DNA from: Giesbergeria anulus
GTDB lineage: Bacteria > Pseudomonadota > Gammaproteobacteria > Burkholderiales > Burkholderiaceae_C
Assembly: GCF_900111115.1 (NCBI RefSeq)
Contig: NZ_FOGD01000013.1
Coordinates: forward strand, 1-64,000
Length of the DNA: 64,000 bases
Reading direction: 5' to 3'
A model generated the notes under the pieces. That model searched no databases and had not been told where the DNA came from. It saw nothing but the letters and a program-made list of their open reading frames with translations. The stretch's first letter is position 1, and each line of letters starts with the position of its first letter. Below, one piece after another: positions 1 through 19,244 of the stretch. The position numbers were made by a program, and so were the translations under genes.

Positions 1-1
1 A

Positions 2-241
2 CTGGTACGCATCCCGGACGACCCCAGAATTCGCGCCGACCTCCGCAAAGTGCAAAAAACCACCACAACGGCAGGCAACATCCGTTTCGTTGCCGAAAGC
101 GAAGGGGACGGCCACGCCGACCGCTTTTGGGCCTTAGCTTTGGCACGCCATGCGGGTGCCAACCCCACAGCGCCCCTTGAATACACAAGCGGAGGCCCGC
201 GTGAGAGCAGCCAGCCACTAGGAGACTTCATCTATGGCTAA
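2..241 (+). CDS. Mu-like phage terminase large subunit, C-terminal end (partial)
   Basis: The frame is open from the left edge of the window, so only about 79 C-terminal residues are visible. The end contains RFVAESEGDGHADRFWALAL, which matches the nuclease-domain end of Mu gp28-like packaging ATPases, where a conserved acidic GHADRFWA stretch closes the RNase H-like nuclease fold. The ATPase domain lies outside the window. The stop overlaps the start of the portal gene by 8 nt, the usual gp28-gp29 coupling. The protein would cut and pump phage DNA into proheads. The family call rests on this tail and on the gene order. Confidence 0.8.
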   Translation: MVRIPDDPRIRADLRKVQKTTTTAGNIRFVAESEGDGHADRFWALALARHAGANPTAPLEYTSGGPRESSQPLGDFIYG

Positions 242-1754
242 ACGCACCCAGCCCACCCGCCACACCCCGATGACAGCACCCCAGCGGCCAGAACTCGATA
301 CCGAATTTGCCCACCGCCTACGCGACCCCTTTGAGCAGCACTACATGGGCGTGCTGCGCACCAACGACCCCCTGCTGTTAGAGCGTGGCAACGGCAGCGT
401 CGAGTTGTACCGCGACCTCAAGCGCGACGGAAAAGTCTTTGCTGGCCTGCAAAAACGCCAACTTGCACTGATCGGCAAACCTTGGCAAGTGGAACCCCGG
501 CAAAAAGACCATGCCAAAGCCAGCGCCGATACCGAAGTCGTGACCACTATCCTCAAAGCCTGCAACTTTGACCGGCTGTGCTCCGACCTGCTCGAAGCCC
601 TATTGGCCGGATTTACCGTGGCCGAGATTGTCTGGACGGTACGCGATGGCTTGGTCGTACCGGCCCGGATTACCAAACGGGCGCAGCGGCGCTTCGTTTA
701 TGTGCAAGCAGACGACCAAACACCCCCTTGGCTGCACCTCCTGACCCGCGACAACATGCTCACTGGCACCCCGGTACCAGAGCGCAAATTCATCGTTCAC
801 CGGGTCAACCCCGAAGACGACAATCCCTACGGCACTGGCTTGGGCCTGCAACTATTCTGGCCGGTGTATTTCAAGCGCAAAGGCATCGTCGCTTGGAACA
901 AGCTGTGCGACCGTTTTGGCTCTCCAACCCCGCACGGCAAATACCCCCGCAACGCTGGCCCGAAAGAAAAAGGCACACTGGCCGATGCCCTGCGCGCCAT
1001 GAGCAACGATGGCTACTTGATGACCCCCGAAGGCATGGAGATTGCACTGCTCGAAAGCAAGCTCTCAGGCAACGTCACCACCCAACAACAGCTTTGTGAG
1101 TACATGGACGACTGGATTGGGGCCGTACTGACTGGGCAGGAGTCGCGTGCATCAGGTGGCGGTGCCTTGGCAGCGGCCAGCAAGGAACGCCAAGACGTGC
1201 GCCAAGACCTGACGCAGGCCGATAGCGACCTGCTCTCAGAAACCCTCAACGAAACCCTGCTGGCGTGGATTTGCGAATACAACGGCTTGGAACCTTGCCT
1301 CGTCTATCGCCAGATCAAGGACGAGGACGACACCAAAGCGCTTGCCGAGGCCGACAAAATCGTCTTCGATATGGGATTCGAGTTGGACGAAGATACCGTA
1401 CGGGCCAAGTACGGTGAAGGCTGGCACAAAAAGAAGGCGTCACCATCACCGAGCACACCACAAAACACACCAAGCCCCCCCAATTTTGCCGAACCCGCTG
1501 CGGCAGGCGGCCCCGCCCTCGACCCCCTCCAGAAAGAAACCAAGCAACTGCTGACTAGCACCGCGCCGGTATGGTCTGGCATGGTGGAGCAATTGCAGGC
1601 ATTGGTTGCACAAGCCAAAGACCTCGCGCAGGTACAGCAAACACTGGTGCAAGCCTACGGCCACCTCGACAGTGCCGAGCTGGTCAAACTGATGGCCGCT
1701 GCGCTGGCACTGGCAGAACTCAAAGGCATGGCTGCCGTGCAGTCCGAAGGCTGA
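234..1754 (+). CDS. Mu gp29-like portal protein (DUF935)
   Basis: A 506-residue protein with the DUF935 pattern: an N-terminal region with LRTNDPLLLERGNGSVELYR, a core with FGSPTPHGKYP (about residues 225-235), and a low-complexity Ser/Pro/Thr linker near residues 400-430 before a helical C-terminus. Length is normal for Mu-type portals (about 500). It forms the dodecameric ring at the head vertex through which DNA enters and leaves. It overlaps the terminase by 8 nt and is followed after 4 nt by the MuF gene. It appears intact. Confidence 0.9.
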   Translation: MAKRTQPTRHTPMTAPQRPELDTEFAHRLRDPFEQHYMGVLRTNDPLLLERGNGSVELYRDLKRDGKVFAGLQKRQLALIGKPWQVEPRQKDHAKASADTEVVTTILKACNFDRLCSDLLEALLAGFTVAEIVWTVRDGLVVPARITKRAQRRFVYVQADDQTPPWLHLLTRDNMLTGTPVPERKFIVHRVNPEDDNPYGTGLGLQLFWPVYFKRKGIVAWNKLCDRFGSPTPHGKYPRNAGPKEKGTLADALRAMSNDGYLMTPEGMEIALLESKLSGNVTTQQQLCEYMDDWIGAVLTGQESRASGGGALAAASKERQDVRQDLTQADSDLLSETLNETLLAWICEYNGLEPCLVYRQIKDEDDTKALAEADKIVFDMGFELDEDTVRAKYGEGWHKKKASPSPSTPQNTPSPPNFAEPAAAGGPALDPLQKETKQLLTSTAPVWSGMVEQLQALVAQAKDLAQVQQTLVQAYGHLDSAELVKLMAAALALAELKGMAAVQSEG

Positions 1755-1758
1755 ACCC

Positions 1759-3015
1759 ATGCCCACCGCACCCCTGAACATCGGCTTTGGCACACCGTGG
1801 GCCGATCAAATTGATTTTCTGCGGCAAAAACTGCGCTTGCCCACCGAACGCTGGGACGACATTCAGCGTGCCGCACATGACCGCGCCTTCATGGTGGCCG
1901 GGGTTGCCAAAGCAGACTTATTGGCCGATTTGCAGGGGGCAGTGACACGGGCGGCAGAAATGGGCATGGGTGTAGCGCAGTTTCAACGCGAGTTTCTGGC
2001 CATCGTTGCCAAGCACGGTTGGACGGGCTGGACGGGCGAAGGCAGCGCCGCCGGTGAAGCATGGCGTACCCGCATCATCTACCAAACCAACATGGCCAAT
2101 AGCTACGCTGCTGGCCGCTATCGCCAACTCACCGACCCCGATTACCTGCGCCTGCGCCCATATTGGCGTTACATCCACAGCGATGGCGTAGCACACCCGC
2201 GCCCACAGCATCTGGCTTGGCATGGCCTGACCCTGCCGCACGATCACCCCTTCTGGCAAACCCACTTCGCCCCCAACGGCTGGGGCTGCGAATGCCGCAT
2301 TACCTCTGTGAGTCGCAAAGAAGGCGAAGCCAGCGCCCGTGCCGGACTGGGTGAGCCGCCAGCGAGCTGGGACGCCATCGACCCCAAAACCGGGGCCATG
2401 CTGGGGATAGATAAGGGGTTTGACTATGCGCTGGGGGCGGGTGTCAAACAAAGCTTTCAGCGCCTGATCGACGACAAGCTGATCCGCTTGAATGCACCGA
2501 TTGGCGCGGCAATGTGGGAAGCGTTGAAGCCCACCTTGTTACAAGAACGGCTTGTTGCATGGCAGCCGGTGGCTGATGCCACGTTCGCCAGCATGCGCAG
2601 CCAAGGTATCGCCACCCTCGTCCATACCCTAGAGCCAGCAACGGTAGCCGCACTGCAAAGCCAAGGCGTGGTGTTAGAAAACGCTGCAGTTTGGATACGC
2701 GACACCGAGCTGCTGCACGCCATCCGCCATGACAAGACCGGACGCGGTGCCGCCATCCCACATGAGGTGTGGCGCGAGCTTCCGGCGTTGCTGGCGCAAG
2801 CCACGCCCTACTGGGACAAGGTGAAGAAGAACCTGATTTACGCGATTGATCTTGGTTCCAAGGTGGGCAAGTTCGCAGTGGAGATCAACTACAACGAAAA
2901 AGGCTGGTTTGATGGCGTGCGCGCCAAGTTGGTGTCTAACTTTGTACGCACTGGGGGACTGGTGGAGCCAGCCAACCTGTTAGAGCCTAAGTATTTTCCG
3001 CTTAACGGAACCTAA
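1759..3015 (+). CDS. Mu gp30/MuF head morphogenesis protein with C-terminal PBECR2-like nuclease domain
   Basis: A 418-residue minor head protein. About residues 60-200 are the MuF/SPP1 gp7 domain, with HPRPQHLAWHGLTLPHDHPFW and an FAPNGWGCECRI Cys pair. The C-terminal ~120 residues (AVWIRDTELLHAIRHD through GWFDGVRAKLVSNFVRTGG) resemble the PBECR2 domain, a predicted metal-free RNase fold of the barnase/EndoU/colicin E5/RelE type that is known to be attached to MuF proteins and may be injected with the phage DNA. The head role is well supported; the toxin role is inferred from the domain. It ends 7 nt before the antisense tRNA-like element. Confidence 0.82.
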   Translation: MPTAPLNIGFGTPWADQIDFLRQKLRLPTERWDDIQRAAHDRAFMVAGVAKADLLADLQGAVTRAAEMGMGVAQFQREFLAIVAKHGWTGWTGEGSAAGEAWRTRIIYQTNMANSYAAGRYRQLTDPDYLRLRPYWRYIHSDGVAHPRPQHLAWHGLTLPHDHPFWQTHFAPNGWGCECRITSVSRKEGEASARAGLGEPPASWDAIDPKTGAMLGIDKGFDYALGAGVKQSFQRLIDDKLIRLNAPIGAAMWEALKPTLLQERLVAWQPVADATFASMRSQGIATLVHTLEPATVAALQSQGVVLENAAVWIRDTELLHAIRHDKTGRGAAIPHEVWRELPALLAQATPYWDKVKKNLIYAIDLGSKVGKFAVEINYNEKGWFDGVRAKLVSNFVRTGGLVEPANLLEPKYFPLNGT

Positions 3016-3022
3016 ACCGAGG

Positions 3023-3110
3023 CCTCTGATGCCGGGTTGGACTCGAACCAACATACACGGAGGACTTTCGTCCCTCGTCCCCTTCCCATCGGGGTACACA
3101 GCACCAGAGG
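3023..3110 (-). ncRNA. tRNA-like structured element antisense to the phage head genes
   Basis: Read on the minus strand, the segment has a perfect T-arm, GTTGG-TTCGAGT-CCAAC, containing the full tRNA B-box GGTTCGAGTCC. The ends 3099-3110 and 3023-3034 pair as a 12-bp stem with two G-U pairs, which are only allowed on the minus-strand RNA. CCCC(GATGGGAA)GGGG fits a D-arm, and GAGGG(ACGAAAG)TCCTC fits a 5-bp/7-nt anticodon arm that would read GAA (Phe). Departures: position 33 is C not U, the acceptor is 12 bp instead of 7, and no CCA is encoded. It may be a degenerate or repurposed tRNA. Whether it is transcribed is unknown. Confidence 0.6.
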
Positions 3111-3184
3111 TAGGTTGATTCTAGAAGAAATTGGGGACGTCGTGTTTGCGGCGATTATCGTAAAAGCGTCAATTTGAAGCATCC

Positions 3185-3709
3185 ATGATTACCATCACCA
3201 TCCAAGACCGAGAGGTACTCGCCACGCTGCAAGCCTTAACCCGGCGTATTGGCAACATGGCCCCCGTGCTACAAGCCATTGGCGACGACATCACCGAACG
3301 CACCAAGCGCCGCTTCGAGACCAGCACCGGCCCGGACGGCACACCTTGGGAAGCCAACAGCCCCACCACAATGGGTATCTACTCCCTACGCTTGGGCCAA
3401 GGCCACCGCAAGAAAGATGGCAGCTTGAACAAGCGGGGCGAAGCACGGGTAGCAGGCAAAAAACCACTGATCGACACCGGCGAGCTACGTCGCCAGATCG
3501 TGCCACAGGTATCAAACAACGTTCTCACCGTCACTGCCACCCCGGTCTATGCTGCCATCCACCAGTTCGGCGGCCAAGCTGGTGGCGGCCACAAAGTCAA
3601 AATTCCAGCCCGCCCCTACTTGCCGGTGAAAGCTGATGGCAATTTGTACCCGCAGGAACAAGCACTGATTCTTGAGACCTTGCAGTTGTTCCTGACCGAA
3701 GACCTGTGA
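3185..3709 (+). CDS. Mu gpG-like virion morphogenesis / tail completion protein
   Basis: A 174-residue protein of the phage virion morphogenesis family (Mu gene G type). The middle has GEARVAGKKPLIDTGELRRQI and the C-terminal part has YAAIHQFGGQAG followed by IPARPYLPV, all typical of this head-tail completion family. It starts at ATG 3185 about 170 nt after the MuF gene, with the tRNA-like element in the gap. It is the last phage gene present: no protease, scaffold, capsid or tail genes follow, so the prophage is cut off here. Confidence 0.85.
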   Translation: MITITIQDREVLATLQALTRRIGNMAPVLQAIGDDITERTKRRFETSTGPDGTPWEANSPTTMGIYSLRLGQGHRKKDGSLNKRGEARVAGKKPLIDTGELRRQIVPQVSNNVLTVTATPVYAAIHQFGGQAGGGHKVKIPARPYLPVKADGNLYPQEQALILETLQLFLTEDL

Positions 3710-3772
3710 CCCCGACCACGTAAATGTTCCACAATGGGACGTGCAGTGCGGGCCATCCCCTCCAGAAAAAGA

Positions 3773-3795
3773 AAAAGTGCCAAATCGGCACTTTT
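3773..3795. terminator. Bidirectional rho-independent terminator
   Basis: AAAAGTGCC-AAATC-GGCACTTTT forms a 9-bp stem with a 5-nt loop and A/T ends on both sides. It sits between the end of the phage gpG gene (+) and the end of the convergent recQ-like gene (-), so it can stop transcription from both. Confidence 0.75.
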
Positions 3796-3921
3796 GCTAT
3801 CCCGAGTTTCGATTTTCATGTGGGGAAAAAGATTTCTATAGTTCTATCCCACGTCATGCCGCAGTAGCCCAATAAATCCCGATTTATCGCGCCGCTCACT
3901 CTTTCTTTATCTCAACTCCCC

Positions 3922-6309
3922 TCAAGCAACGCCCGATTCCAGCATCATCTCGTCAGTGCTCAGGCCATCGGGAGCGTCACTGCGAAAGAGATGCTCGACA
4001 ACTGCTGCATAAGTTTTACGCGCTTTTGCATTCAGATTTGCTTTTTCCAGCTTGTCTAGCGCTTCGTCCAAGGTAGCAACCTTCAGGCTGTTGGGGAAAA
4101 CACGCGTACGGTTTTCCTTTCTTTGGAGGAAACCGCTGCGTTCAAGCCATGCAATTGCTGTAGTCACTTTGGTTGCGGCGTCTCGCGAGTCGACCTCGAT
4201 AGTTGTGCCCTCACTTTCAGCAAGCAGTTCCTTTGCTGACACAACAACCTCTGAGCTTTTCATCCGCTCACAACGTTTTCTGATGGCGCGCAATAGACCG
4301 TTGAAGTCCTGGTACCTCAGCTGCGAACCGGCTGAGAGCTTGAACTGGGTTTCAACATCTTCTTCATCAAAGAGGAGCACGCAGTGTGCAGACTCGCCGT
4401 CGCGGCCAGCGCGTCCGGCCTCCTGAAGATAGTTCTCAAGGGAGCCCGTGATGTCAGCGTGTATGACCAGGCGTACATTGGGTTTGTCCACCCCCATTCC
4501 AAAAGCATTCGTCGCAGCTATGACCTGAAGCGTGCCGCTGAGGAAGTCTTGCTGCACCTCCTTCTTCTTATCAGAGGCTAGCCCTCCATGGAAACAACCA
4601 CTGACGACACCATGCTTTTCAAGGATTTCGGCAAAGAACTCGGCATTTTTCCTCGTGGCACAAAAGACAATGGCCGCTCCATCCGGCTTAAGGTCTTCCC
4701 GAATCAGTTCTAGGATGCGCTGCGCCTTTTCTGCTTTGGTCGCAGGCACAACCGAAAACGTGAGATTGGTGCGTTCATGGCCACCCAAGAACTTTTCAAG
4801 GGAAATTCCCAAACTGTCTTGGAAGTGCTCGCACAAGTCTTCGACCACATCCAGCTTAGCTGTAGCTGTAAAGCACGCAATAGGGGCACCTTGGGCCGAG
4901 AAGTTTTCACCAATGTATCGCGCCACATAGAGGTAGTCCGTGCGAAAGTCATGCCCCCACTTGGAAAGGCAGTGCGCTTCGTCGAACACCCAAGTGGCAA
5001 TTTGTCGGTGTCGAATGGCATCACAAAACGTTCGACTCCGGAACTGTTCGGGCGAGACCAAAACGATGCCAGCATCTCCAAGACGGATTTTGTCCAAGGC
5101 TGCTCTGCGCTCGATTGGGGTGAGGAGGCCATTGATGGTGACCGCGCATTGCACGCCAGCCGCCACTAGGTTATCCACCTGGTCCTTCATCAAGGATTGA
5201 AGTGGGGATACGATGACAGTGAGCTTGCCAGTTCGCCAGTAGTGCGCCAGTGCTGGAAGCTGGTAGCAGATGGACTTTCCTCCTCCAGTCGGAAGTACAG
5301 CAAGCAAGCTATGGCGCTGGAGACCCGCTTGAACAATGGCCCGCTGCAAGGACGCACCGTCCGCAGTTGTCGGTTTATCCCTAAAGCTGGGTTTCGAGAA
5401 ATAAGACTTCAGTAGTGCTTCAGGGTCGTGCTGCGTTTGGCAATAGGTACAAGTAGGGTCGCCGCAGTCTCTCTCCCGCAGGTGCTCCACCTGCCCAAAC
5501 ACGGTGGGCATGGTCTCACTCACCCAAAGTGGCAATACTGAGTTCCCTCCTGAGACTCGAATCCATCCCAAGGCATAGGCGAGTGCAGTTTGCGCCTCGG
5601 CCGCTTCTTCAGAAAATTTGGAGAAGCCTTCCGTTAACTGGCGCAAGGCTGTCTGGCAACACTTGTTCTGAAATTTTCGTAATGCAATGTCCTGTGCGGC
5701 CTGAGGTTCGGGCGCTGTCGAAGTTCGTATTTCTCCCAGCAAGCTACATAACGGCCCATCGCGGCGTAACAGGAAATGAAGCAGAGCGAACCAGTCTTCG
5801 TCACTTCGCCACATCTCTTCCAAAGCAACCAGTTCGTCAACGAGAAGGTCGAGCGTGATACGGGCATCACGTTCGGGCTCGTTCTTAGAATCGGAGACAA
5901 GCTTGTAGCCTTTGACCAGTCGGTGGTAGGGATTGTTCGGAAAAGCAATTGTGGACAGTTCCAGCGTGTCCAGCATAGGCAGGTGCAGGCACTGCAAGGT
6001 CGGATACTGTTTTTTGAGTTCAACCAGGTCGTGGCGCCGCAGGTTGTGGCCCACCAGGAGCCTTGAATCTATAGCCAGTTCGTCGACTTTTTGAACAAGG
6101 TCTGCGGCTGTCAACGTGCTCGCGGAGAGCGTCAGGCCACGCTGGTCTAAGCTGCGAACTGCTCCCAGCTTGAAGATACGATTGTCATCTTGAGGAACGG
6201 TTTCAACGTCTACCGAAAAGGCACGCCATGTACTCAGACGTGCAAGCCAATGCTGGCGGCGGTCAGGCTCAAGCTGCACCGGGTCTAGAACCTGTTCAGT
6301 GGAAATCAA
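3922..6309 (-). CDS. RecQ-family DNA helicase with N-terminal DEDD exonuclease domain, probably C-terminally truncated
   Basis: A 795-residue protein. The N-terminal ~170 residues are a DnaQ/WRN-like 3'-5' exonuclease: FSVDVETV (D34, E36), LVGHNLRRHDL and RDARITLDLL supply the acidic residues. The RecQ helicase follows, with Walker A LPTGGGKSICYQLPAL, motif II DEAHCLSKWGHDFR and motif VI QEAGRAGRDGE. The exonuclease-then-helicase order is that of human WRN. The protein stops shortly after the start of what looks like a helix-turn-helix (GLSTDEMMLESGVA), next to the phage remnant, suggesting loss of a C-terminal part. No RecQ zinc-binding or HRDC domain is obvious. Likely roles are repair or genome defence. 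Confidence 0.85.
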   Translation of the reverse strand: MISTEQVLDPVQLEPDRRQHWLARLSTWRAFSVDVETVPQDDNRIFKLGAVRSLDQRGLTLSASTLTAADLVQKVDELAIDSRLLVGHNLRRHDLVELKKQYPTLQCLHLPMLDTLELSTIAFPNNPYHRLVKGYKLVSDSKNEPERDARITLDLLVDELVALEEMWRSDEDWFALLHFLLRRDGPLCSLLGEIRTSTAPEPQAAQDIALRKFQNKCCQTALRQLTEGFSKFSEEAAEAQTALAYALGWIRVSGGNSVLPLWVSETMPTVFGQVEHLRERDCGDPTCTYCQTQHDPEALLKSYFSKPSFRDKPTTADGASLQRAIVQAGLQRHSLLAVLPTGGGKSICYQLPALAHYWRTGKLTVIVSPLQSLMKDQVDNLVAAGVQCAVTINGLLTPIERRAALDKIRLGDAGIVLVSPEQFRSRTFCDAIRHRQIATWVFDEAHCLSKWGHDFRTDYLYVARYIGENFSAQGAPIACFTATAKLDVVEDLCEHFQDSLGISLEKFLGGHERTNLTFSVVPATKAEKAQRILELIREDLKPDGAAIVFCATRKNAEFFAEILEKHGVVSGCFHGGLASDKKKEVQQDFLSGTLQVIAATNAFGMGVDKPNVRLVIHADITGSLENYLQEAGRAGRDGESAHCVLLFDEEDVETQFKLSAGSQLRYQDFNGLLRAIRKRCERMKSSEVVVSAKELLAESEGTTIEVDSRDAATKVTTAIAWLERSGFLQRKENRTRVFPNSLKVATLDEALDKLEKANLNAKARKTYAAVVEHLFRSDAPDGLSTDEMMLESGVA

Positions 6310-10586: not shown

Positions 10587-11588
10587 TCATAGCTCTACGT
10601 GTTTTTCATCCGCATCTTCTGCGGTGGCTGGTGCAATCGCAGCTATCTCCAAGAGCTCTTCCAGCCCTTGGGCGAAGGCCTCGCGCTGCTCAGCAGATAC
10701 TGTGATGACCAATTCGAAAGAGTCACCACGCTGCTTGTAAACGCCGTTTGCGTACCGAATAGTCTTGCCAGCCGTCTTGGCTTTTTGGGCATTTGGATTT
10801 AGCAGAGCCTGAACTTGATTCGTCAGCCAGCGCTGCGTCTGGTCTTCGCTCGCATACTTATTCGCAAGAGAAACCGTTTTTCTAATGCCAGCTTTGTCGT
10901 AGAGCTTCGCGAGCTGATACGCCTCTGTAGCACCGAACTTACCCGGATGGAGGCGAATAATCTCGAGCACATCTTCGGGCAGTTTCCCGTAGGCTCGGTA
11001 AAAGCTCATCATTGTTTTTGATAGCTTGGCCCTGCGGGCAATTTCTGCCGCCGTTTCCCCGGCTGCGATGAGCTTCTCATAGAACATCGCACGGTCTAGG
11101 TCGCAGTGCTGAGACCTGCCTTCGTTTTGTTCATAACCAAACCAAGCCGACTCCTGCATGCTAAGGTCGGTGTGAATCTCTGCGAGCAAGGTGTCGAACA
11201 CCTTGTGCTCACGGCATGCCTGGACACGAGTCCAGCCGTCGCAGATGATAAAGCGACCAGCAGCGGATGGATTGGGTATAACGTGTATGGGGTCGTGCTG
11301 ACCTTGGACTCGCAAGTCTTCAGCCCGGTCTCGAATCATTTCCGGTGTGTAGACTTCGCGCGGTGCCAGCGGATTGGGGTCAATCAGGTTGACATTGACC
11401 GTGGTCAGCTTGCGACCCCCATTTGAGGTCTCTGGCGGGGCTACTTTATCTTGGGTTTCTATAAGGGGCGTTGTTTCATCACGGGCAACAGGACCAGGGA
11501 TGTCTGGAAGTCCGTACATTGGTGTCGCAGGCACCACGGCACCGGACTTGATGAGGCCAGACAGTTTTGGAAGGGGCTTCGACATCAT
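10587..11588 (-). CDS. parB: ParB/KorB-like partition protein
   Basis: A 333-residue protein. The N-terminal ParB/Srx domain (about residues 65-160) carries LIDPNPLAPRE and GRFIICDGWTRVQACREH, in the position of the CTPase/GERR-type region. The helix-turn-helix follows (AAEIARRAKLSKTMMSFYRA), then a KorB-like middle and a C-terminal dimerisation part. It binds parS and, with ParA, segregates plasmid copies. Its start overlaps the parA stop by 4 nt, indicating one operon, and three parS-like palindromes lie just downstream. Confidence 0.88.
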   Translation of the reverse strand: MMSKPLPKLSGLIKSGAVVPATPMYGLPDIPGPVARDETTPLIETQDKVAPPETSNGGRKLTTVNVNLIDPNPLAPREVYTPEMIRDRAEDLRVQGQHDPIHVIPNPSAAGRFIICDGWTRVQACREHKVFDTLLAEIHTDLSMQESAWFGYEQNEGRSQHCDLDRAMFYEKLIAAGETAAEIARRAKLSKTMMSFYRAYGKLPEDVLEIIRLHPGKFGATEAYQLAKLYDKAGIRKTVSLANKYASEDQTQRWLTNQVQALLNPNAQKAKTAGKTIRYANGVYKQRGDSFELVITVSAEQREAFAQGLEELLEIAAIAPATAEDADEKHVEL

Positions 11589-12652
11589 TCCTCTCCTGCC
11601 GGCAGGCCAGGCATGGTAATACCGTAGCTCCGGATGAGGCTCTTGGCTACATCAATCACTGCAGCGGCACCCACGGAGCTCGATTCGAATTCCACCAGAG
11701 GCCCTGTGTCCTCTTTTGCAGCCGGACTGAGCTGACGCGCAAATCCTGAAAACTGCGGAATGATAGAGTCATTGAGCATGCTGCCATACTTTGAGTACAA
11801 AAAGCCCATTGATTCACGCACGTGTTTCAGACTTGGGTGGTACTTGTTGATGACAACTTCCATCCCGATATTTGCACCGGTGACGGCTTTAATTTCAGCC
11901 AAGTTGGATGCAAGAGAGTCCAGCGCCCGGAGGCAGCTACCCTCAGGTTCCACGACGGTCAAAACTTTGCCGGACTGCTTTGCGGCAAACGAGAAGGCAA
12001 GCCCAATGGGAGTGGTTCCGGGTGCGGTGTCGACTACTATGACGTCGTAATGCTGGGCGAAGAATGTGCTGTTTCGATTCAAGAACAACTCAGCACGTGT
12101 GTGGCTCGACATCACAGCAACCAAACTGGCGTCTGTCTCAGCCAAGGTGATGTCAGACGGAATCAGGTCCAGTAAGCCGTCCTGATAGATGTGTTTGATT
12201 GCACTAGAGAGGTCTTCATCCGGTGAGCTGGTCGATTTCCTCAAAAAATGGCCAATGTGCAGGATGTCGGTGTCGTAGACGGCAGTCTCTATGCCGAGTA
12301 AGTTGGATGCGGATGCTTGCGGGTCTGCATCAATCATCAGGACGCGGTAGCCCATCATTGACATCGCTGCTGCGACATTGACAGAAATACTCGTTTTTCC
12401 GACGCCACCCTTGGTCATCCGGGTGACAATGACCGGCGGCAATTTGGTTATCAAAGGAAGCTGGCTGATAGCCGGTGGTTCGATACCTGCTGCCCGATAC
12501 CTCGCAGCGCGGATATCCGATGGCAGATATCGCATGTGGTGCTGTCCTGCAGGCTTCTCGCGTCCACAGAGTTCCTGCAGCTTTTTTGCAGACACATCTA
12601 GATTAGATAGCGTGAGCGCTACCGACGTTTTGAAATCAATTGCCCGAGCCAT
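11585..12652 (-). CDS. parA: ParA partition ATPase with N-terminal DNA-binding region
   Basis: A 355-residue protein of the large (class Ia) ParA type. The first ~80 residues form a DNA-binding extension (LSNLDVSAKKLQELCGRE), and the ATPase starts with the deviant Walker A MTKGGVGKTSISVNVA, followed by LMIDADPQASASNLLG and VIVVDTAPGTTP. Proteins of this size repress their own promoter, and a 10-bp inverted repeat sits 3 nt upstream of the start. It drives segregation with ParB. Confidence 0.9.
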   Translation of the reverse strand: MARAIDFKTSVALTLSNLDVSAKKLQELCGREKPAGQHHMRYLPSDIRAARYRAAGIEPPAISQLPLITKLPPVIVTRMTKGGVGKTSISVNVAAAMSMMGYRVLMIDADPQASASNLLGIETAVYDTDILHIGHFLRKSTSSPDEDLSSAIKHIYQDGLLDLIPSDITLAETDASLVAVMSSHTRAELFLNRNSTFFAQHYDVIVVDTAPGTTPIGLAFSFAAKQSGKVLTVVEPEGSCLRALDSLASNLAEIKAVTGANIGMEVVINKYHPSLKHVRESMGFLYSKYGSMLNDSIIPQFSGFARQLSPAAKEDTGPLVEFESSSVGAAAVIDVAKSLIRSYGITMPGLPAGEE

Positions 12653-18860: not shown

Positions 18861-19244
18861 TCAACGGGCAGGTCTAACTACACCGCCCAGTCCGCGAAGG
18901 CAGCCGAAACACCGCGTTGGTTGAGTGGTGCACCCCTTAGTCGACACCGGTTCCCGCAGTACCCGTAGTACCTCAGGGTGCGCCTGAGCAACGCGTATTA
19001 AAGACTGTGCGGCCCCAGAAGGTTGTCTGAGCCCCTGTTCCCGTTCTTGCAGTGTGCGTAGGCTCACCCCCAGCAGCTTGGAAAATGCAGACTGCGAAAC
19101 CCCCACCTTGTCCCGCGCCTGTGCTGCAACTGTCAGGGTGACGTGATGCACACGCCGCTCTCCACGTTTGGCCTGCTGAATCGACTCCAGCACATCATTG
19201 ACAAACGCCTGCATTTCAGCGTCCATCTTCACGGTTTTAGGCAT
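18861..19244 (-). CDS. HigA-like antitoxin / XRE regulator
   Basis: A 127-residue protein from ATG 19244, chosen because it overlaps the end of the preceding 40-codon ORF. The fold is a helical N-terminus, then a helix-turn-helix (DKVGVSQSAFSKLLGVSLRT, LQEREQGLRQPSG) as in HigA antitoxins and NadS-like proteins. The C-terminal ~25 residues are Cys/Gly/Arg-rich and look like added sequence. No full-length toxin gene is next to it. Confidence 0.7.
   Translation of the reverse strand: MPKTVKMDAEMQAFVNDVLESIQQAKRGERRVHHVTLTVAAQARDKVGVSQSAFSKLLGVSLRTLQEREQGLRQPSGAAQSLIRVAQAHPEVLRVLREPVSTKGCTTQPTRCFGCLRGLGGVVRPAR

Follow-up and report, generated by a model that had tools for sequence, protein, structure and literature searches.

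In a Mu-like prophage of Giesbergeria anulus, the gap between the gene of the head protein MuF and the next late gene carries, on the strand opposite to both, a gene for a tRNA-like RNA, which is probably an immunity factor (decoy or antitoxin) of the toxin-like domain of the adjacent MuF protein. The RNA gene lies at positions 3023–3110 (minus strand) of the first 64,000 nucleotides of contig NZ_FOGD01000013.1 (assembly GCF_900111115.1), and this whole stretch is referred to as the window. The position and strand of the RNA, the covarying structure of its counterparts in relatives, their tracking of the toxin class and of a putative active-site motif, and the presence of stand-alone copies are established below. 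We infer that the RNA is transcribed, that it binds the toxin, and that the toxin is an RNase which is neutralised in this way.

The RNA gene in the window

The MuF gene (Mu gp30-like; Pfam Phage_Mu_F, E 2.3e-11; tail aligned with 12 relatives) occupies 1759–3015 on the plus strand and ends in a toxin-like domain of the class named C1 here; the next late gene, encoding a phage virion morphogenesis protein (Mu G-like, gpG; Pfam Phage_tail_S, E 4.1e-23), occupies 3185–3709 on the same strand. The 3′ end of the RNA is found 7 nt past the MuF stop codon, on the opposite strand, and its placement between the two genes is as the original prediction, made from the letters alone, had described it. The fold given there was also recovered: the minus strand of 3023–3110 forms a 12-bp stem closing three hairpins, one of which, GGTTCGAGTCC at 3036–3052 (minus strand), is a T-arm of 5 bp and 7 nt with the canonical T-loop UUCGAGU. 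This RNA, closing stem included, is the type A RNA of the classification used below and the proposed immunity RNA. Its minimum free energy (MFE) on the minus strand is −43.8 kcal/mol (z −3.17), a value equalled by 0/200 shuffled sequences; on the plus strand it is −35.0 (z −1.86), equalled by 9/200.

A tRNA search on the minus strand had been suggested, and ARAGORN, run on both strands of the 64 kb, called a single gene, 3027–3105 (minus strand), as "tRNA-Phe (gaa)". In Rfam no family reached its gathering score with the window RNA, the best sub-threshold match being tRNA-Sec with 22.2 bits against the 47 required, nor did any family in 19 related loci. The claim that this is not a normal tRNA stands, as residue 33 read from the sequence is C, the scores remain below the Rfam tRNA thresholds, and the RNA lacks an encoded CCA end, which is encoded in 28/28 compared host tRNAs. 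Among these 28, drawn from the 30 best-scoring of 47 tRNA matches and not including tRNA-Ser, the nearest to type A in the D- and T-arms is tRNA-Tyr, clearly ahead for the type A RNA of the related locus L091 (37.4 vs 31.8) and nearly level with tRNA-Phe for the window RNA (31.3 vs 30.5); as the compared set is incomplete, this resemblance is only a hint. Two identical copies of the window RNA are present in the assembly.

RNA architectures in related loci

Related loci (numbered with the prefix L) were collected by a scan with the MuF protein, yielding 70 viral and 24 genome loci, and by class-specific scans with the C-terminal tails, yielding 35 C1, 20 C2 and 60 C3 loci, partly on contigs already present in the MuF scan; the tails were sorted into C1 (that of the window), C2, C3 and others (18 distinct). 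Related copies between the F and G genes, whose absence would have spoken against the prediction, do exist: minus-strand structured RNAs of several architectures occupy the MuF–gpG gaps of relatives, and compensatory changes are seen in the stems of types B and C.

Types A and B are tRNA-like, with a conserved T-arm and an anticodon arm that varies freely in sequence and length. Type A comprises the RNAs of the window, of L006/L075, L024 and L251, and the distal copies in L073 and L091. The D-loop GG is present; in the type B consensus fold it is paired inside an invariant UUCC/GGAA hairpin, and the four invariant pairs of this D-arm-like hairpin give no covariation support. Across the type B set, to which L056 and the RNA of a Pasteurella phage were added by hand and from which the variants L009 and L157 were excluded, 97.7% of 601 cells are paired and 11 of the 21 pairs have changed on both sides; the covariation score is 0.355 against 0.173 for shuffled alignments, with 0/500 shuffles as high. 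With a type B model from which the window was excluded, the window RNA is recovered at E 5.7e-5; a host tRNA locus also reaches 22.5 bits with this model, and the match therefore cannot separate homology from tRNA-likeness. The ARAGORN labels on relatives are Phe, Lys, Cys or an unreadable anticodon, with no anticodon shared.

Type C, found with class C2, is a kissing-loop cloverleaf: a closing stem carries two arms, and the loops of these arms are able to pair with each other by four bases. Pairing extends to 98.5% of 332 cells, and the loop–loop contact CGGA/UCCG is replaced by CGGC/GCCG in 2 of 13 sequences, one pair having changed on both sides. Alignment A10 was made without L168, which is near-identical to L167. 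Type D, found with class C3, is characterised by one covarying helix that occurs in two strand orders, in 31 and 9 of 40 distinct stretches, and from the sequences we read the two orders as a circular permutation. Loci such as L182 and L202 present one RNA core in the two permuted orders beside homologous toxins. When helix P2 was counted by motif anchors in the 40 distinct stretches, 195/200 cells were paired (shuffled mean 173, maximum 182), a count inflated by choosing the best-pairing 5′ motif where several were possible and by excluding stretches without both motifs. RNAalifold on the type D sequence alignment gave 4 pairs only; alignment A11 was made without L200, L203, L221 and L240, four of the 26 extracted sequences.

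Most loci have a single RNA; tandem pairs occur in L073 (proximal B, distal A), L086 (proximal of the toxin's own class, D, and distal B) and L091. When eight RNAs of types B, C and D were folded on their own, z ranged from −1.68 to −4.85.

Association of the RNAs with toxin classes

Counted over distinct 150-nt stretches behind the toxin, the T-arm is present in 26/26 stretches of class C1, in 4/20 of C2 and in 0/51 of C3, as well as in 0/18 behind other tails and 0/6 behind MuF without a tail. The type C motif is found in 12/20 stretches of C2, four having neither it nor the T-arm, and the D motif in 45/51 of C3; several of the six C3 stretches that the regular expression did not match (L199, L205, L223, L233, L234, L239) look like variants by eye. 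The shuffled background per locus is 0.2–0.3% for the T-arm and 4–6% for the loose D motif. In the MuF-based scan an RNA accompanies 13/13 C1 and 10/13 C2 tails. Among distinct proteins for which both MuF and gpG were found, the gap to gpG is 2–11 nt in 6/6 MuF proteins lacking a C-terminal domain, which leaves no room for an RNA; three C2 proteins have gaps of 7–10 nt, and all others have gaps of 72 nt or more.

Over 399 genomes of the host's order, a C1 profile found 11 places in 6 genomes, that of the host included. Eight of the 11 places were inspected and represent 6 distinct stretches, of which four (L248, L250, L251, L252) have the T-arm; the two others, from genome G386, are predicted to form a branched fold with a long closing stem. 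In L251 the MuF gene apparently contains an intein-like insertion, starting with CFPGDTLV and ending with VVSN before C; even so, a type A RNA comes after the gene.

The toxin-like domain and its putative active site

The class C1 domain of the window (2566–3012, plus strand), with the conserved motifs H..R..K and SNF..TGG, is proposed to have an RNase (BECR/RelE-like) fold on the basis of weak structural matches. The original prediction had named it a PBECR2 nuclease; Pfam gave no match of any kind to the window tail even at E 10, PBECR2 included, and this label is unsupported for this protein. Class C2 is homologous to C1 (hhalign probability 97.8%) and matches Pfam MuF_C weakly (E 6.7e-4, 20.2 bits, cut-off 27.6). 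Class C3 is PBECR3 by Pfam (E 3.1e-9 for the member tested), and hhalign linked it neither to C1 nor to C2. No Pfam family of the ToxN/CptN/TenpN type was matched by any of the 8 tails tested. The AlphaFold models of C1 and C2 have a predicted local distance difference test score (pLDDT) of 82 and 86, respectively, and their best structural matches are RNase toxins, i.e., a contact-dependent inhibition (CDI) toxin (7m5f), RelE, BrnT and HigB, at Z of 5.0 or less. For the C1 model the top matches are the CDI toxin and RelE (Z 4.0–3.8, not clearly over background), for the C2 model BrnT (Z 5.0); searching the PDB sequences with a C2 profile gave no relevant match. Compared with phage records, the window tail gave a single distant match, a C2 tail matched three records of two phages, and two C3 tails matched none.

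The RNA also tracks the putative active site. According to the alignment, an Arg-His pair at one position of C2 is kept in 16/16 loci with an RNA and is missing in 4/4 loci without one (L171, L172, L180, L181), which are not independent cases, L181 being closely related to L180 and L172 lying near L167 in sequence. The alignment was used for this statement because the regular expression K[KQE]..RH is too narrow for C2; similarly, L134 failed the C1 motif through the regular expression alone.

In phage Mu the motif is likewise missing from gp30, and this gene overlaps gene G; in the part of Iyer et al. 2017 (PMC5512222) available to us, the PBECR domain of Mu gp30 is called inactive, which fits the absence of the RNA in Mu. 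DILHxLRDxK is retained in the tails of two phages, Pseudomonas phage B3 and Pasteurella phage AFS-2018a, whose gaps are 123 and 124 nt long, respectively. The gap in AFS-2018a, whose toxin is only 26.6% identical to that of the window, holds a type B RNA (49.8 bits, this RNA being itself among the 29 model-building sequences). For the B3 RNA the inner fold is uncertain: its MFE structure is a long irregular hairpin, and a cloverleaf is possible only by hand. A "hypothetical protein" gene annotated in B3, B3ORF34 (L242 2984–3082, i.e., B3 18980–19078), runs across the RNA region on the opposite strand and may be a spurious annotation.

Strand and promoter signals

In type B the acceptor and T-stem cells pair in 295/297 cases on the minus strand versus 269 on the plus strand, and 27/297 stem cells are G-U pairs that are mismatches on the plus strand; the regular expression defining the set demanded at least 8/11 minus-strand pairs, which introduces a slight minus-strand bias. 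A −10-like box, TAGAAT, is located 7 nt upstream of the 5′ end of the window RNA (3118–3123, minus strand), with no good −35 seen upstream. Among the 72 RNAs for which 5′ ends were set (4 of type A, 28 B, 13 C and 27 D), a −10-like hexamer matching at 5/6 positions or more precedes the RNA by 3–19 nt in 60/72; mononucleotide shuffles gave 13%, with a maximum of 26% in 1000. In several members of the group L188–L217 a T-run follows the type D closing stem, before the toxin stop codon, and resembles an intrinsic terminator.

Stand-alone chromosomal copies

Copies of the RNAs are also found apart from any recognised toxin. RNA model R1 was found in 2/399 genomes of the order, both times beside C1 toxins, and in 1/369 genomes of the class; the latter copy, L261 (77 bits), lies behind a umuC-like gene and has a TATACT box. 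RNA model R2 had matches in 3/399 genomes, in no case with a recognised toxin alongside: one near an element read as IS21-type (L258, 65 bits), one after an MmeI-like gene (L259, 51.6 bits) and one beside groES (L260, 45 bits). L259 and L260, for which about 1.5 kb on each side was examined, are less certain than L258 and L261. In the 18 kb surrounding each of L261 and L258, queries with MuF, portal, gpG and toxin sequences gave no match below E 0.01, the best being 0.012. The searches over 40 genomes were run with stricter filters, at the cost of weak matches.

The prophage and its surroundings

The window begins with the right-hand part of the Mu-like prophage (1–3924, plus strand). Bases 1–3924 are identical to C28:1–3924, contig C28 belonging to the same genome, and diverge beyond; position 3924, where this identity stops, is taken as the right end. 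Upstream of MuF lies the portal protein gene (Mu gp29-like; 234–1754, plus strand; Pfam Portal_Mu, E 1.2e-95). The two identical prophage right ends are placed at different host sites, here abutting a helicase gene (3922–6309, minus strand; Pfam DEAD and Helicase_C), which appears RecQ-like from reading and is probably interrupted by the prophage. Adjacent parB- and parA-like genes at 10587–12652 (minus strand) were named from reading translations, no search having been made; the contig may be a plasmid or second replicon.

Interpretation and alternatives

The mechanism that we propose is as follows. The MuF protein would be a late product that is packaged into the head and probably injected; the domain at its C-terminus would probably be an RNase, perhaps a tRNase. 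The prophage would make a small stable RNA constitutively from a minus-strand promoter of its own, independently of the silent late operon. The class C1 RNA would present a tRNA-like T-arm, a D-arm-like hairpin and the overall tRNA shape together with a variable, non-canonical anticodon arm and no CCA; having this shape without a canonical anticodon arm or CCA, it could occupy the toxin and not be a normal substrate. Other toxin classes would be paired with other RNAs, and the RNA would protect the cells that hold it, be they lysogens or bacteria that have captured a stand-alone copy. A tRNA mimic acting as a decoy for the MuF nuclease, the idea of the original prediction, is still the best reading of the window RNA; it needs widening, since several architectures mostly tied to toxin class, minus-strand −10-like boxes and lone chromosomal copies have come to light. 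In the wider form, towards which we lean slightly, Mu-like phages would possess a modular RNA immunity system in which unrelated RNAs each neutralise one class of head-packaged RNase toxin, some of the RNAs having been captured as stand-alone genes by bacteria.

Several observations weigh against an immunity RNA. The match between class and type is imperfect: L024, whose tail scores as C2, and L091 (C4) carry type A, and four C2 loci have tRNA-like RNAs. As many as 16 of the 18 distinct tails of other classes, PBECR2 included, have no recognised RNA, the two remaining being L091, with its distal type A, and L069, with a loose D match. Eleven stretches beside other-class tails fold with z from +1.33 to −2.27, a range that overlaps the −1.68 to −4.85 of the RNAs, and the C3 locus L064 gives +0.24. 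L006 keeps the RNA though its toxin motif is deleted, the near-twin L075 being intact. On the protein side, the structural matches to RNase toxins are suggestive at most: an unrelated protein follows close behind them in the ranking (Z 3.6), and Foldseek against the PDB with the C1 model found nothing at E 0.001. The class association alone could be explained by linkage, as the RNA adjoins the toxin codons and is inherited together with them; the joint loss of Arg-His and RNA in C2 is less open to this objection. Gaps of 340–404 nt in L007, L014, L035, L038, L077 and L086 offer room for a small open reading frame (ORF) besides the RNA, and such an ORF could be a protein immunity gene. Beside another toxin class, C4, the loci L045, L046 and L049 have a minus-strand sequence in common (GGCAAAAATCTCGC..., GTGCAAACGACTGAG...), perhaps a further RNA type, unsupported by the folding z-scores of two of them.

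Trivial origins were ruled out, a host tRNA or an assembly artefact because position and strand recur across many contigs, and a chance hairpin by conservation and covariation. The chief rival is that the RNA is a partner of the MuF nuclease domain without being its antidote, most plausibly a cofactor, or else an assembly chaperone, a packaged RNA, an activating guide or the natural substrate. It would predict the same pairing with toxin class and intact motif, and the structure is indeed conserved like a binding surface; chromosomal copies devoid of a recognised toxin are harder to account for in this way, and the −10-like boxes suggest expression separate from the late operon. We consider this rival unlikely. 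These same lone copies, having no toxin mRNA in cis, also count against antisense control, in which a minus-strand transcript would extend into the MuF gene and base-pair with the toxin mRNA as in a type I-like system, the structure being a mere stabiliser. The RNA does end at or near the MuF stop codon, and in many loci no T-run is seen there; however, compensatory changes maintain specific architectures, the loop–loop contact included, and in one C3 subgroup (L188 and L194, for instance) the T-run after the closing stem could end transcription before the toxin gene. We regard antisense control as quite improbable.

An element of the plus-strand late mRNA (a processing site, a terminator or a translation control between F and G) would suit the location inside the late gene cluster of phages, and the plus strand folds too. 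Yet type B pairs better on the minus strand, where 27 G-U pairs take the place of plus-strand mismatches, −10-like boxes stand before the minus-strand 5′ ends, copies exist outside the cluster, and MuF genes without a toxin do without the element; the G-U asymmetry and the stand-alone copies in particular lead us to hold it very unlikely. Hardly credible is a real or supplementary phage-borne tRNA, in spite of the ARAGORN call of tRNA-Phe and the similarity of the type A D- and T-arms to host tRNA-Tyr, as the RNA has C33 and no CCA, relatives have no anticodon in common, the 12-bp stem in the window leaves no normal acceptor end, and types C and D are not tRNAs.

Relation to known systems

The proposed immunity RNAs can be compared with several known systems. 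In type III toxin–antitoxin modules (ToxIN, CptIN, TenpIN) a structured RNA is paired with an RNase toxin, the RNA consisting of tandem repeats upstream of the ToxN-family toxin gene and on the same strand. Here, in contrast, the RNAs, one or two per locus, follow the gene of a virion protein on the other strand, and both the toxins and the RNA folds, which are tRNA-like or permuted, are different. Type III modules are also the main known source of RNA antitoxins acting by sequestration of an RNase. With tRNAs, types A and B share the cloverleaf, the canonical T-arm and a D-arm-like hairpin; unlike tRNAs, they have neither CCA nor a common anticodon, remain below the Rfam tRNA thresholds and, in the window, have C33 and an extended end stem.

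The closest parallel in carrier and place is that of the MuF polymorphic toxins with protein immunity, in which, as described in the part of Jamet et al. 2017 (PMC5576092) available to us, the immunity factor comes just after the toxin domain and is needed only with that domain; 89.4% of 191 muf toxin genes are followed by a small ORF. The loci described here likewise have a Phage_Mu_F domain, a variable C-terminal domain in a prophage, and an adjacent factor when the toxin domain is present; the factor is a structured RNA on the opposite strand, whereas the same part of PMC5576092 speaks of immunity proteins only. The PBECR and MuF_C domains are predicted phage RNases (Iyer et al. 2017, PMC5512222), and class C3 here is PBECR3; the portion of that paper at hand names no RNA partner and suggests mRNA or CRISPR RNA as targets. 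Searches of open-licence PMC papers turned up no account of MuF toxins having an RNA partner.

The immunity factors of polymorphic toxins are generally regarded as proteins; if the reading proposed here is true, RNA immunity would extend to virion-delivered toxins, here those of transposable phages. The RNAs would then give a handle on the targets of the MuF/PBECR RNases, as a decoy should resemble the target, and would constitute a natural collection of RNA inhibitors, circularly permuted ones included. Such RNAs may also account for those MuF toxins that have no immunity ORF and for some of the stand-alone chromosomal tRNA-like genes.
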